Below are positions 4,679 to 22,957 of a stretch of 32,814 nt of DNA, piece after piece. The notes beneath the pieces are model-generated. The model saw nothing but the letters and a program-made list of their open reading frames with translations. It was not told where the DNA came from and ran no database searches. Each line of letters opens with the position of its first letter. Within the stretch, counting starts at the first letter, position 1. The position numbers and the translations under genes are program-made. Source of the DNA: a virus. The DNA is taken from positions 1 to 32,814 of IMG/VR virus record IMGVR_UViG_3300047994_000086. The stretch is one strand, 5' to 3'.

Positions 4679-4682
4679 GTAG

Positions 4683-7764: not shown

Positions 7765-8421
7765 TCAGAAGGAGTTTCGCTCAACAGAACGCTTGGTGGG
7801 AGGTCTCTTGCGGGGCAGCACAAAGTTGAGGGGCCCTTCAAAGTCATCCACGGTCAGGCCCATCTCGTAAGTCTGCTTGAGGACTTTCCTGAGGTTGTGC
7901 ATGGTGGACTTGACAGTGTTGATATTGATCTGGAACTCTTCAGCCACTTCCCTGTAGGTCTTACCCTGGTAGGTGATCATCTGGAATATCTTGACGTGCC
8001 TGGGAAGGAACCTCTGGTGCATGGTCTGCACGTGGTGGAGCTGCTTGTCCATCTCGTGGGAAAGCAGGACCCTCTCCTCGTCAGGAGGCACGTAGAGGAG
8101 CTTACCGAGAGCCACGTTCTCGTCCTGAAAGTCAGCGCTGTGGGTGTGAGTCTGGTAACGCTTCTCTACGAAGCACTCGTTGCGCACTATCCTGTACATC
8201 CAGGTGGAGAAACCACCCAGGCTGGAGTCGTACCTGTCGATGCTGAGTAGAGCGTTGCACCAGGCTTTCTGGACAACAGCCCTAGCAGAGTCGGTACACG
8301 AGAGGAAAGTCTTGGCGTAGTTGAAGAGACCAGGGAAGAGCCTGTTGTAGAGCTTGTTGAAGTGCCTGTCTGACCTTGAGGAGAGCCAGTCTTGAGCAGT
8401 GTCTTGTATTGAGTCAGCCAT
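7765..8421 (-). CDS. Phage-encoded RNA polymerase sigma factor (ECF / sigma-70 family)
   Basis: The 218-residue protein has a two-domain sigma layout. Region 2 spans about residues 18-90 (NKLYNRLFPGLFNYA ... FSTWMYRIVRNECF), which binds core polymerase and the -10 element. Region 4 spans about 118-183, with a helix-turn-helix (TYREVAEEFQININTVKSTM) that usually reads the -35. A basic tail (KRPPTKRS) follows. It sits just upstream of lysozyme and terminase, so it could switch on late genes, as gp55 does in T4. An ATATATA element lies 31 bases before its own start and another follows its stop. Function as a sigma factor is well supported; its promoter targets are inference. Confidence 0.88.
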   Translation of the reverse strand: MADSIQDTAQDWLSSRSDRHFNKLYNRLFPGLFNYAKTFLSCTDSARAVVQKAWCNALLSIDRYDSSLGGFSTWMYRIVRNECFVEKRYQTHTHSADFQDENVALGKLLYVPPDEERVLLSHEMDKQLHHVQTMHQRFLPRHVKIFQMITYQGKTYREVAEEFQININTVKSTMHNLRKVLKQTYEMGLTVDDFEGPLNFVLPRKRPPTKRSVERNSF

Positions 8422-9402: not shown

Positions 9403-9819
9403 CTAGAGCTCTATCACATCTGCTAGTTCAGCTATTCTTCTAGCAGAAGCTGGACCATACTTATCTTCAAGTTCTTTAAAACTCAAGTTAGTGGTAAAGA
9501 AAGTCTTGTAAGAATGATTTCCGTAGTTTGGAATAAACTGCATGTCGTATCTCTTCTCTAGAATGTACTGCATCATCATTAGCTCGCTACCAAAGAACTT
9601 GACAATAGTTGGTTCTTTACCCAAGTCATCTATGTAAAGTTCTTCCCACTTTAGTATTTCTGATAGTTTATCAAGACCGTCTTTCTTGAGCAACATCATT
9701 TGAATATCTAGCACATGAATGAAATACTTAGTTTTTGATTTGCTAGCTTTCTCTTCTTTCCTCATTAGGGTGGTCTTTCCTTTACCGGTTGAACCCATCC
9801 AGATTGTACCTTTTGGCAT
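9403..9819 (-). CDS. Minimal AAA+ ATPase, DnaC-like helicase loader
   Basis: The 138-residue protein has Walker A GSTGKGKT (9-16), Walker B LYIDDLG (61-67), a sensor-1-like TTN (109-111) and a C-terminal YGPASARRI segment (121-129) typical of DnaC/IstB-type ATPases. These load the replicative helicase onto initiator-bound DNA. It is much shorter than DnaC (about 245 residues): the protein starts only eight residues before Walker A, so the N-terminal helicase-binding domain is missing. The upstream initiator stop (9844) leaves no room for a longer start. The gene follows the O-like initiator, as loader P follows O in lambda. Loader function is inferred from family and context. Confidence 0.8.
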   Translation of the reverse strand: MPKGTIWMGSTGKGKTTLMRKEEKASKSKTKYFIHVLDIQMMLLKKDGLDKLSEILKWEELYIDDLGKEPTIVKFFGSELMMMQYILEKRYDMQFIPNYGNHSYKTFFTTNLSFKELEDKYGPASARRIAELADVIEL

Positions 9820-9843: not shown

Positions 9844-10704
9844 TTAGTCTTTCTTGTAAGTTACCCACTTGTTAATATCGAAGTCTTGACCTCCAGCTTT
9901 TGCAAAGTCTTCGTTAGATTTCTTGACAGCTTGTCTCTTGAAATCTTCTTCCCATTTCCTGTCTTTCAGGTAGTTTACCGGTGAAGCTTGAAACTGGAGT
10001 TCAGTTGTGCTACGGTACCATTTAGTATGCTCGATCATCCTTTGTTTAATATCCAGAGCTTGCTCTGTAGAAAGAGTCTTGAGTTCAGGTACTCCCTCGT
10101 ACAAGCCTTGAACTAGCAAGTTCTTTCTTGCAGCCTTACCGTAGGAAGGATACCATTCATTAAGAACCCAATCAGCTAGAACCTTTGCAGGGCTAGATTG
10201 GGTATTCTCTTCAAGGGAAGAAGGGGCTGAGTGTGGACTATTATCTTTTGTATCTTTATTATCTTTTGTCAGTAATCCCCGGTTATCGGTCCGATAATCC
10301 CCGATTACTGGTACCGATAACCCTGGATTACTGGTTACTTCTGCAAGTTGACTAGAACCAGTAATCCCCGGTAACTGGTTCTTTATTTTATCCATGTTGA
10401 GATCAAATGAGTAAGCAGCACCCTGGTTAGCTCTAACTTCCTTTCCCTTAGTTGAAGTGATAGTTATGTAACCGTCCTTAGAGAGTAACATAGTCATTTT
10501 AGCTATCACAGGTCTTCCGTAGCCTGTCATCTCTCTAAGTTGTGAGTAAGATATTATGTCGCTAGTTTTGTGCCAGCCTATTGTCTTCCTGCAAATAGCA
10601 AGTAGGACAACGATAGCGTGAGGTTTGTCTGCGTACTTTCTCATTACGATGTCCATGATCTCGTTTGGCACCTGAGTGTAATTGGGTGGTTGTAGCATAA
10701 GCAT
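9844..10704 (-). CDS. Phage replication initiator, O-like, with internal origin
   Basis: The 286-residue protein begins with a winged-helix domain (about 1-110; PNYTQVPNEIMD, CRKTIGWHK, SYSQLREMTGYGRPVIAKM) matching the N-terminal domain of phage replication protein O. A low-complexity linker (about 110-165) is encoded by the iteron region, as in lambda O, and a basic C-terminal domain (about 165-286) likely contacts the loader or helicase. It binds the origin and opens it for host replication. The loader gene follows 24 bases after the stop. ATG 10704 abuts a T6 run of a terminator hairpin; ATG at 10698 is an alternative. DNA is more A/T-rich than in late genes. Confidence 0.8.
   Translation of the reverse strand: MLMLQPPNYTQVPNEIMDIVMRKYADKPHAIVVLLAICRKTIGWHKTSDIISYSQLREMTGYGRPVIAKMTMLLSKDGYITITSTKGKEVRANQGAAYSFDLNMDKIKNQLPGITGSSQLAEVTSNPGLSVPVIGDYRTDNRGLLTKDNKDTKDNSPHSAPSSLEENTQSSPAKVLADWVLNEWYPSYGKAARKNLLVQGLYEGVPELKTLSTEQALDIKQRMIEHTKWYRSTTELQFQASPVNYLKDRKWEEDFKRQAVKKSNEDFAKAGGQDFDINKWVTYKKD
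10240..10378. other. Candidate replication origin: iterons plus A/T-rich unwinding element
   Basis: Four 21-bp near-palindromic repeats with consensus CCRRTAAYCCCCGRTTACTGG lie at 10269-10289, 10291-10311, 10314-10334 and 10358-10378. Starts are 22, 23 and 44 bases apart, so all fall on the same helical face; the 44-base gap may hold a degenerate copy. Beside them is an A/T-rich stretch with a 12-bp direct repeat ATTATCTTTTGT at 10240-10251 and 10258-10269. The arrangement and its place inside the initiator gene match lambda ori. Confidence 0.75.
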
Positions 10705-10745
10705 AAAAAATGGCGAGTGTCTTCGGTGCCCCCACCCACTCGCCA
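10705..10745 (-). terminator. Intrinsic terminator/attenuator directly before the initiator start codon
   Basis: A perfect 9-bp stem (10711-10719 with 10737-10745, arms TGGCGAGTG and CACTCGCCA) with a 17-base loop is followed on the minus strand by T6 (10705-10710), and the ATG at 10704 comes next. CCCCCA in the loop (10729-10734) is complementary to TGGGGG at 10785-10790 in the presumed leader, a possible competing or pseudoknot pairing. On the plus strand the hairpin is also followed by a T-run (10750-10753). Confidence 0.65.
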
Positions 10746-10818
10746 GGCTTTTTACGCCAAAAATTTTTAACTGAAATCTTTCAATGGGGGTTAAGTGAAA
10801 GGCCAGTTTCCTTATGAA

Positions 10819-10827
10819 TTATATATC
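10819..10827 (-). promoter_or_regulatory. GATATATAA element, probable promoter of the replication operon
   Basis: The minus strand reads GAGATATATAATTCATAAG, with TTG 25 bases before TATAAT as at 7752-7760. It lies about 115 bases before the initiator and upstream of the attenuator, giving a leader of roughly 105 bases. The 12 bases CTTATGAATTAT (plus strand 10811-10822) recur at 24255-24266. Confidence 0.45.
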
Positions 10828-10839
10828 TCTGCTCTTAAA

Positions 10840-10995
10840 GTTTTTGAACAAAAATCACCCTAGTATGTTTCATGCAGGAGAAATAGTAAACTCCGGGCCA
10901 CAGGATCTCCCTGTGTACCATGCACCCTGGTGATTGATTAAGTTAACACTGGAGAGCTTTCAAAAAAACTGGTGCCCTTTTAGACACCAGTTTTT
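10840..10995 (+). ncRNA. Candidate structured RNA between the divergent operons
   Basis: No coding frame is credible here. Two small hairpins are visible: GGAG/CTCC (10877-10880 with 10891-10894) and CACAGG/CCTGTG (10899-10904 with 10910-10915). The stretch ends in a strong terminator at 10964-10995. The strand and boundaries are uncertain. It could be a leader, a replication control RNA or non-transcribed DNA. Confidence 0.25.
10964..10995 (+). terminator. Strong bidirectional intrinsic terminator
   Basis: AAAAACTGGTG (10964-10974) pairs with CACCAGTTTTT (10985-10995), an 11-bp stem with a 10-base loop and A/T runs on both sides. It separates the leftward replication block from the rightward block that starts at 11071. 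Confidence 0.75.
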
Positions 10996-19827: not shown

Positions 19828-20451
19828 TTAGTAAGCTGTCATCGGGTTGACAAGTTGACCGTAGCAAGCAGTCACTATGTCTGTGCTCAACCACAGTGCC
19901 CTGTTTCTTTCTTGAGAGTACATTGTCACGTTGTAACCGTTGTTGTCACCGGGTTTCTTGCCGCTGGAGTCTGTCTCATCAGTCACTTCCAGACCGTCAA
20001 AGAAACCCAGAGCTCTGTAGTTACCCGAGTAGTCGAGGATGATGACCTTGTTGTAACGCAAGCTGGAGAGTGTCAGCAACTGGCTCTCAAGGAAAGCTGG
20101 TTCAGTGGTGTCAGCGTCTTTCTCATTACCCGCAGCTAGCGTGAAGGTCAGGGTGCAGTCGTAGTAGATTGAGCTGTTCTCGCCCGACCTCACCTGCTTC
20201 TGCTTGTAGTCTCCAGAACCCTTGACAATAGCGTAGTTGTACCAAGTTCCCGTACCTACAATCGACTGAGAACCCAGACCCCCTGGAGAAATAGTGAAGC
20301 CAGGGTTCAAGTAGGTGGGAGGGTTGGTGAAACCACCAAAGCTGGTTATGTTGGGTGGGTTACCCTGGGCATCGTTTCCCAAGACCCAGACTGCCCTGAC
20401 TCCTGACTTTTTCGTGACTGCTGGTAGGCCTATGTTAGACGTTATTCCCAT
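19828..20451 (-). CDS. Tail tube-like protein, paralogue 2
   Basis: The 207-residue protein aligns over its whole length with the neighbour at 20526-21089: KKSGVRAVWVLG, YLNPGF, GTGTWYNYA, RSGENSSIYYDCTL, YRALGFFDGLEV, KPGDNNGYNVTM, ERNRALWLSTDI. The shared Lys-Pro-Gly-Asp-x-x-x-Tyr-x-Val-T loop and early RSGENSS segment resemble Bacteroidota-phage major tail (tube) proteins. Two copies suggest a tube subunit plus a variant at the end or initiator ring. A hairpin separates the two genes. Tail tube identity is inferred; alternative roles such as capsid decoration cannot be excluded. Confidence 0.6.
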   Translation of the reverse strand: MGITSNIGLPAVTKKSGVRAVWVLGNDAQGNPPNITSFGGFTNPPTYLNPGFTISPGGLGSQSIVGTGTWYNYAIVKGSGDYKQKQVRSGENSSIYYDCTLTFTLAAGNEKDADTTEPAFLESQLLTLSSLRYNKVIILDYSGNYRALGFFDGLEVTDETDSSGKKPGDNNGYNVTMYSQERNRALWLSTDIVTACYGQLVNPMTAY

Positions 20452-20471: not shown

Positions 20472-20508
20472 CAGTGGGAGACGGAGACTGTATCCCCATC
20501 TCCCACTG
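20472..20508 (-). terminator. Hairpin between the tube-like paralogues
   Basis: CAGTGGGAGA (20472-20481) pairs with TCTCCCACTG (20499-20508), a 10-bp stem with a 17-base loop. On the minus strand it is followed by TCTTATTATAAC, only weakly T-rich. It may tune the ratio of neighbouring genes or stabilise the mRNA end. Confidence 0.55.
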
Positions 20509-20525: not shown

Positions 20526-21089
20526 TTAGTAAGCTGTCTGTGGTTGAACAGTGAATGCTGCGCAAACAGTAGCTATGTCGCTCTGCAACCAGTAAGCTGA
20601 GTTATTCTCCTCAGTAGTGAAAGTCACCTTGTAGTTAAGGTTGTCTCCCGGTTTCGTACCGCTTCCGCTAGGAGCAGTCTTAACCTCTGCACCGTTATCA
20701 AGACCAATAGCTCTGTAAGTATTATCATTGTACATGACAATTATTTTCAGGAACCTTGCAGACAGCAAGTTCTGGAGTATGATATCGTTTGCAGCGTTGG
20801 GACCGTAGAACTCTGCAGTCAGGGTGCCCTCGTAGTAGAGCGAGCTGTTCTCGCCAGACCTCATTGGAGCTTCTGAGTAGCTAGAAGTGTTCTTGGGTAG
20901 AGCGAAGTTGTACCACGTACCAGTCCCACCGATAGAGGTCAGACCAGTAGCACCCAGTGATGGGTCAAGGTAGGTAGCAGGAGAGACGTAGGGCCCGTAG
21001 GAACTGACAGTTCCTCCCAGTATCCAGAGCGTCTTCAACCCAGCTTTCTTGGTGATCGGCTGGTTGACTATTCCACTTGATAATGCCAT
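20526..21089 (-). CDS. Tail tube-like protein, paralogue 1
   Basis: The 187-residue protein shares the same blocks as paralogue 2: KKAGLKTLWILGG, ATYLDPSLG, GTGTWYNFALPK, RSGENSSLYYEGTL, YRAIGLDNGAEV, KPGDNLNYKVTF, EENNSAYWLQSDI. The length and beta-rich pattern fit a tail tube subunit of a siphovirus. It is flanked by hairpins at 20472-20508 and 21110-21140, so it may be a discrete high-output mRNA segment like the capsid gene. The leader ACTAGAAACACAAATG lacks a Shine-Dalgarno site. Role by pattern and context. Confidence 0.65.
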   Translation of the reverse strand: MALSSGIVNQPITKKAGLKTLWILGGTVSSYGPYVSPATYLDPSLGATGLTSIGGTGTWYNFALPKNTSSYSEAPMRSGENSSLYYEGTLTAEFYGPNAANDIILQNLLSARFLKIIVMYNDNTYRAIGLDNGAEVKTAPSGSGTKPGDNLNYKVTFTTEENNSAYWLQSDIATVCAAFTVQPQTAY

Positions 21090-21109: not shown

Positions 21110-21140
21110 GGGAGAGTCGGTGAACTTTACCGACTCTCCC
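21110..21140 (-). terminator. Strong hairpin after the major capsid gene
   Basis: GGGAGAGTCGG (21110-21120) pairs with CCGACTCTCCC (21130-21140), an 11-bp stem extendable by one pair, with a short loop. It lies 12 bases after the capsid stop. No long T-run follows on the minus strand, so it may be a leaky terminator or mRNA-stabilising hairpin. Confidence 0.6.
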
Positions 21141-22205: not shown

Positions 22206-22862
22206 TTATTGGTTGCCGTTTCTCTCGACAGCTGCGAAGATTTCTTCCCTTCTCAGTCTCTTGAACTCTTCAGCCTTTGTCCTTGCTTGGGCTTCGGGAG
22301 TGCTCTGTGCTGCGAACGTTTGCTTCTCAGCGCTTGGTGCACCGGGTATCCTGGCGAACTTCTTCAGTTCCTTGGCCATGTCAGCCTTGTGATCTTCGAC
22401 AAGTTTCTTGACAGCCGCCATTTCCTGAGAGTCTGTGCTTGACTTTGACTTGAGAGCTTCAAGTTCTTTCTTCAACTCGGTGACTTGGTCTTCCAGAGCT
22501 TTGATATGGTCTGATTTCACGTCATCCACTTTTTCTCCAGCAGCTTCAGCTGGTGTTGCTTCCATAGTCTCGGCGCTTGCATCGTCAGCAGCCATCTCTG
22601 TCTGGTCACCACCGTCAGGGGAGTCAGTAGACTCAATACTCTGTATGGTGCCATTGCTGTCGACAGTGATCTCCTGGTCAGGAGTGGAGTAGGTTCCCTC
22701 GTCAGCTGGTTCGCCGTTCACGTAGAGGACGTTACCAACAGCTAGGTCATCGCACTGCAGCGTGGTACCGTCGGTGGTAGTGATCTCAGTAGCGAACTTC
22801 TGGTCTTTCTTTGCCCCGAACAGTGACTCTCTGAGTTGCTTGAACGCTTCTTTGTTTGTCAT
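22206..22862 (-). CDS. Capsid scaffolding protein
   Basis: The 218-residue protein has an N-terminal beta region (TDGTTLQCDDLAVGNVLYVNG, about 30-50) seen in several phage scaffolds, an acidic Ser/Ala/Asp-rich low-complexity part (about 70-115), then a coiled coil (about 116-165) and a basic helical C-terminus (about 175-218) suited to bind the capsid shell. It lies directly before the major capsid gene, the usual scaffold position, and opens the leftward head operon. It would be removed or cleaved by the XkdF-type protease encoded at 25682-26440. Scaffold role is inferred from order and composition. Confidence 0.75.
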   Translation of the reverse strand: MTNKEAFKQLRESLFGAKKDQKFATEITTTDGTTLQCDDLAVGNVLYVNGEPADEGTYSTPDQEITVDSNGTIQSIESTDSPDGGDQTEMAADDASAETMEATPAEAAGEKVDDVKSDHIKALEDQVTELKKELEALKSKSSTDSQEMAAVKKLVEDHKADMAKELKKFARIPGAPSAEKQTFAAQSTPEAQARTKAEEFKRLRREEIFAAVERNGNQ

Positions 22863-22938: not shown

Positions 22939-22957
22939 ACCAAACATACTAAAATGC

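Follow-up and report, generated by a model that had tools for sequence, protein, structure and literature searches.

The replication initiator gene (repO) of the virus analyzed here, a 32 814-base IMG/VR virus record (hereafter, the window), is directly preceded by a hairpin that is probably an intrinsic terminator located in the repO leader and, as judged from the sequence, serving as an RNA attenuator of the replication operon. This reading, which was already proposed in a preliminary description of the same DNA, is well supported by the anatomy of the leader and by the recurrence of such terminators in unrelated RepO phages, whereas the specific switch between loop and leader that was proposed along with it, the pairing of CCCCCA with UGGGGG, is weakly supported in the window. 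The results suggest that such phages restrict their own replication, in the manner of some plasmids.

The host is likely to belong to Bacteroidota because the portal protein is distantly related (23–24% identity) to the portals of Nonlabens and Bacteroides phages and because most of the phage genes in the window lack Shine-Dalgarno (SD) sequences. The replication genes and the associated repeats are the following:

9844–10704, minus strand: repO, replication initiator of 286 amino acids (Pfam Phage_rep_O, 1e-11; phrog_678, 3e-16)
9403–9819, minus strand: DnaC-like helicase loader, the next gene of the operon after repO (phrog_50, 1e-13)
10270–10379, unstranded: inverted iteron-like 21-bp repeats, CAGTAATCCCCGGTTATCGGT and variants, inside repO (sequence)

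The repO product scores 45.6 bits against the Pfam cut-off of 28.7 bits for Phage_rep_O, and alignment with RepO homologues sets its N-terminus within two codons, at ATG 10704 or at the in-frame ATG 10698. The repeats represent a probable origin of the lambda type. No direct homologues of the RepO and DnaC-like proteins were detected in scans of viral contigs with both proteins and of GTDB contigs with RepO, and no homologous leader in an exact hairpin scan and a DNA search of phages; the relatives of the portal protein are at most 29% identical to it, and 33 of their records lack Phage_rep_O.

The terminator and its surroundings consist of four elements:

10711–10745, minus strand: terminator hairpin with a 9-bp perfect stem, an inner GGTG/CACC helix and a 17-nt interior (0/200 shuffles)
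10705–10710, minus strand: U6 tract of the terminator (TTTTTT), adjoining the repO ATG at 10704–10702 (sequence)
10749–10757, minus strand: 5' side of an extended stem, GCGUAAAAA, and the T5 tail for the hairpin on the plus strand (repeat search, folding)
10701–10709, minus strand: 3' side of the extended stem (U tract, AUG and C), pairing with 10749–10757 (repeat search, folding)

Read on the minus strand, the hairpin comprises the 5' arm TGGCGAGTG (10745–10737), the 17-nt loop GGTGGGGGCACCGAAGA (10736–10720) and the 3' arm CACTCGCCA (10719–10711), and ends 6 nt from ATG 10704, so that the earlier observation of a 9-bp stem with T6 directly before this start codon is accurate in both sequence and position. 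A stem rich in G+C with a U tract immediately after it is the arrangement expected of an intrinsic terminator. This is the sole stem in the 32.8 kb with at least nine perfect pairs followed by T5, and none of the 200 dinucleotide shuffles matched it; a terminator scan with a loop limit of 8 passes over it, given the loop of 17 nt. The bare stem folds at -19.7 kcal/mol, and with the flanks the energy reaches -29.9 kcal/mol (z = -4.5) because GCGUAAAAA (10757–10749) pairs with UUUUUUAUGC, that is, with the U tract and the AUG. In this predicted fold, the AUG at 10704 is >97% paired, and ATG 10698 is outside the stem and unpaired. There were no Rfam matches in the window at the gathering score; a hit to P26 at 10934–10993 (23.4 bits, under the cut-off of 36) was dismissed as chance. 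Elsewhere in the window, two very strong hairpins (20472–20508 and 21110–21140, z of -6.0 and -6.9) lie ∼20 nt before the structural genes 19828–20451 and 20526–21089.

The position of the hairpin relative to the neighboring signals bears on whether it is an attenuator. Two signals delimit the leader:

10818–10851, minus strand: candidate promoter TTGTTC (10851–10846)-N18-GATATATAAT, with the RNA start estimated near 10811 (motif)
10964–10995, unstranded: bidirectional terminator AAAAACTGGTG..CACCAGTTTTT, shielding the repO leader from upstream transcription (z = -5.5)

Because the RepO homologues fix the start and there is no space for a promoter between the terminator and this start, repO transcripts must pass the terminator, which bears out the earlier claim that transcription of the replication genes has to read through it. 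The likely genes upstream of repO, between 11071 and 12976, are on the plus strand, and minus strand transcription coming from the structural genes would already be halted by the bidirectional terminator. There is no minus strand gene between the hairpin and the bidirectional terminator at 10964–10995, so only the repO transcript must pass the hairpin, which marks it as a likely attenuator rather than an operon-end terminator. The hairpin thus lies between the putative promoter of repO, a motif 110 nt upstream, and the start codon, with no other transcript to end.

The promoter box GATATATAA (10827–10819) contains the motif ATATATAM, which occurs seven times in the window compared with 0.28 expected (at 4682, 7752, 10819, 11057, 19011, 22931 and 31678), with most copies just upstream of gene starts, and perhaps is the promoter box for the phage's own sigma factor (7765–8421). 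The promoter previously placed at 10819–10827 is therefore backed by an over-represented motif that is mostly found near gene starts, but its sigma70-like score alone is unremarkable (p = 0.28). This score counts against the attenuator reading, as does the failure to find an exact TAnnTTTG promoter ahead of repO. Antisense promoters of the sigma70 type were not detectable in the window leader (p = 0.68). A leader peptide was considered and rejected, the leader having no ATG-started reading frame. On the plus strand, TTTG-N17-TATGTTTC at 10842–10877 is near the Bacteroidota promoter pattern and faces the terminator at 10964–10995, so the rightward genes may also have an attenuated leader; on the minus strand, TATGTTTG at 22941–22948, ∼80 nt before the gene 22206–22862, is a candidate late promoter.

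To place this arrangement in context, RepO-type genes were gathered from viral contigs and genomes, and a leader was taken to carry a strong terminator when the hairpin had dG ≤-12 and ≤-0.33 per nt, at least 5 T were present in the next 7 nt and the stem was ≤35 nt from the start codon; this criterion was fixed after the first set and then used on new sets, with both the criterion and the curation chosen in the course of the work. Such terminators precede 21 of the 156 distinct RepO-type leaders' start codons, compared with 8 of 356 other gene starts from the loci of the first two sets (pooled Fisher p 2e-6). By set, 4/71 (the set on which the criterion was chosen), 6/28 (p 1.8e-4), 0/11 and 11/46 (p 5e-7) leaders pass, with the caveat that some lineages may be over-represented because the second and fourth sets were seeded with RepO proteins whose leaders were hits. 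The count for the second set was 8/29 before L320 was dropped and L230 and L234, being homologous, were merged. L320 (1384–1476), with hairpin, T6 and ATG, resembles the window and was rejected given that the hairpin is perhaps within a longer frame; the same stretch is also readable as an N-terminal extension of RepO. The hit leaders tested had no DNA similarity outside known relatives. Several observations count against the attenuator reading: 135 of the 156 RepO leaders have no such terminator, and none of the 11 clear RepO leaders in genomes of one bacterial phylum passes. With a looser definition of a terminator, the first set did not differ significantly from other gene starts (5/71 compared with 13/299, p = 0.36).

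For the analyses of the leaders as a class, L357, whose hairpin is apparently located within the upstream gene, was left out, so that 20 members remain, none with an Rfam match at the gathering score. Complementarity of at least 8 nt between the leader and the hairpin interior is present in 12 of these 20 compared with 13 of 99 control terminators (p about 3e-5; 2.6e-5), and the combined shuffle p is 3e-10 for the members and 0.017 for the controls; the interior is longer in the members (median of 44.5 nt compared with 31 nt), a difference that is taken into account by the shuffle test but not by the count. The complementary segments include:

L242: GAAGTATTGGCA, 12 nt
L149: TAGAGAAGAGT, 11 nt
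L382: GCCATGCAAGA, 11 nt
L354: TATGCACAAA, 10 nt
L383: TGGGTAGAGT, 10 nt
L401: TAAATGGGGA, 10 nt
L230: GTCCGCAAG, 9 nt

When the interior has just been transcribed, the helix between leader and interior is predicted with P ≥0.84 in L149, L230, L226, L242, L240 and L315, and in the full leader, the terminator is predicted to replace this helix in all six except L240. The pairing measure alone did not differ significantly between the first ten members and the controls (p 0.10). A mutually exclusive alternative leader structure is supported for the class by the complementarity statistics. Upstream of the members, there is an excess of sense promoters (combined p 2e-7), with RNA starts at ∼-95 to -162, and no such excess of antisense promoters (combined p 0.98, for the sigma70 type only, so that other types would be missed). 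The 140-nt leader shared by L230 (1337–1476) and the matching stretch of L234 is 99.3% identical, compared with ∼91% for the flanks and repO, and in L092, L304 and L312 the complementary segments are constant and the neighboring positions variable. No covariation was seen among the class leaders, whose sequences are either closely similar or unrelated. The specific switch is unproven in the window but has strong precedent in the class, for which the corresponding layout finds strong support on sequence grounds.

In the window, the switch would involve the following elements:

10769–10808, minus strand: leader stem-loop SL1, two 6-bp helices and a 12-nt loop with CCCCCA (folding)
10785–10790, minus strand: CCCCCA, apical loop of the leader hairpin (folding)
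10729–10734, minus strand: UGGGGG, terminator hairpin interior, the complement of CCCCCA in the leader (folding)

A match as long as the 6 nt of CCCCCA/TGGGGG occurs in 4.6% (67-nt leader) to 16% (90-nt leader) of the shuffles. At the point at which the loop emerges, pairing is predicted with a probability of 0.05 for the guessed RNA 5' end and of 0.46 for a longer leader. In nested folding, the terminator is preferred to the best alternative leader fold by 13 kcal/mol. Hence the pairing put forward in the preliminary description exists as a complementary match, but with p of 0.05–0.16 and a nested fold that does not favor it. A loop-loop kiss between SL1 and the terminator, which lies outside what folding programs model, is possible.

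The following mechanism can be proposed. Transcription would start near 10811 and copy a leader of ∼105 nt, and by default, most polymerases would stop at the U6 tract before the start codon, those that read through giving rise to RepO and the helicase loader; in the read-through mRNA, the stem is also predicted to mask the first AUG. Pairing of leader and loop in cis, before the 3' arm exists, would delay the terminator and let the polymerase pass. Terminated leader RNAs would accumulate with the genome copies and restore termination by base-pairing in trans to the 5' segment of transcripts being newly made, and the outcome would be self-limiting replication. The least certain step is the window version of the pairing, a putative loop-loop kiss of CCCCCA with UGGGGG. 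Among the remaining mechanisms, the simplest would be one of the P4 type, in which the leader itself acts in trans.

The hairpin could instead be a constitutive leaky terminator that keeps repO expression low without any switch, a possibility that we consider real if doubtful, given that the terminator dominates the predicted fold of the complete leader and that the leader-loop match in the window is not significant; this would, however, leave the long complementarity between leader and interior across the class unexplained. It is unlikely that the hairpin is mainly translational, hiding the start codon and the ribosome landing zone with little termination. The extended stem pairs AUG 10704 to >97%, the phage genes mostly do without SD sequences, and in Flavobacterium, initiation is lowered by structure near the start and also tuned by A at -3 (PMC6847099), all of which is compatible with such a role. 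However, the U6 tract, a mark of terminators, is unnecessary for masking a start, ATG 10698 stays open, and most other class members have an SD sequence beyond the U tract, clear of the hairpin. Translational control in addition to attenuation is plausible, given the scarcity of SD sequences and the reach of the stem: the base at -3 of ATG 10704 is T, and this codon is part of the stem, so that the read-through mRNA may be poorly translated, which would amount to a second brake.

Two further explanations were considered. Under one, which appears very unlikely, the hairpin does not regulate repO but is a bidirectional or antisense terminator that ends plus strand RNA leaving repO. On the plus strand, the hairpin is indeed followed by GGCTTTTTACG, with a fold z of -3.8, but the nearest likely plus strand gene in the leftward direction is 371–982, the T6 side faces repO, and across the class, the T tract lies on the sense side, as required by the criterion, with no sigma70-type antisense promoters seen. 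Under the other, the hairpin belongs to the replication origin as a DNA element (a site of single-strand initiation or protein binding) and is not an RNA signal. The iteron-like repeats ∼330 bp inside repO speak for this reading; yet nothing connects the hairpin with the iterons, and the T tract, the location of the hairpin at the start codon and the presence of promoters upstream across the class all fit an RNA terminator, so that we regard it as highly improbable.

Control of copy number by RNA attenuation is classic plasmid biology; if an equivalent recurs just ahead of the initiator gene in otherwise unrelated phages, phages would also meter their early replication by RNA. More tentatively, many RepO-type phages might share an unnamed, fast-diverging class of leader RNA that counts genomes, the terminated leader being its own countertranscript; each terminated leader, carrying both the 5' segment and the complementary loop, would then silence the initiator with no need for an antisense gene of its own. 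Such a class would be a source of many naturally orthogonal attenuators. Its prediction is simple, namely that RNA 3' ends should be mappable in any culture infected by a phage with such a leader. A limited search of open-access full text found no published description of such a leader class, and there is none in Rfam.

Among the known systems, plasmid pT181 produces antisense RNAs from a promoter of their own, and the pre-emptor of this plasmid acts on the terminator by pairing with its 5' arm; to our knowledge, RepO is unrelated to RepC. Unlike in pT181, there is no detectable antisense promoter here, and the complement is in the hairpin interior rather than in the 5' arm. The likeness lies in the terminator that abuts the initiator start and in a leader segment that, in the class, would compete with terminator formation: repC of pT181 is controlled by a countertranscript-driven attenuator, with a terminator-like stem-loop just upstream of the initiator start codon (PMC5703833), and the terminator in the window occupies the same place. 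In pIP501 and the Inc18 plasmids, RNAIII attenuates repR at a poly-T terminator just before rep, so that premature termination in the leader of the initiator mRNA would be shared, although that of pIP501 is antisense-induced (PMC4981023, PMC5703833). The pIP501 leader is longer (∼320 nt in staphylococcal relatives) and comes with an RNAIII gene and CopR, neither of which is seen here. The class is not filed with pT181 or pIP501 because a search for the antisense promoter that defines these systems, in which non-sigma70 promoters would be missed, yielded none. In P4, the CI RNA silences the replication genes by premature termination, pairing with sequences of the same leader (seqA, seqB and seqC) (PMC4825925). 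The leaders described here resemble P4 in combining an RNA from the same leader with complementary leader sequences, of which the complementarity alone is seen here; unlike the P4 CI RNA, which is processed from a longer untranslated transcript and serves prophage immunity, they have the terminator adjoining the initiator start. With lambda, the window shares the RepO family and the inverted iterons within the initiator gene, whereas the lambdoid relatives compared have O after cII-like genes in an operon, with no abutting terminator by the criterion used. Taken together, the class apparently works most like the control of pT181 and pIP501 or that of P4, without a separate countertranscript.
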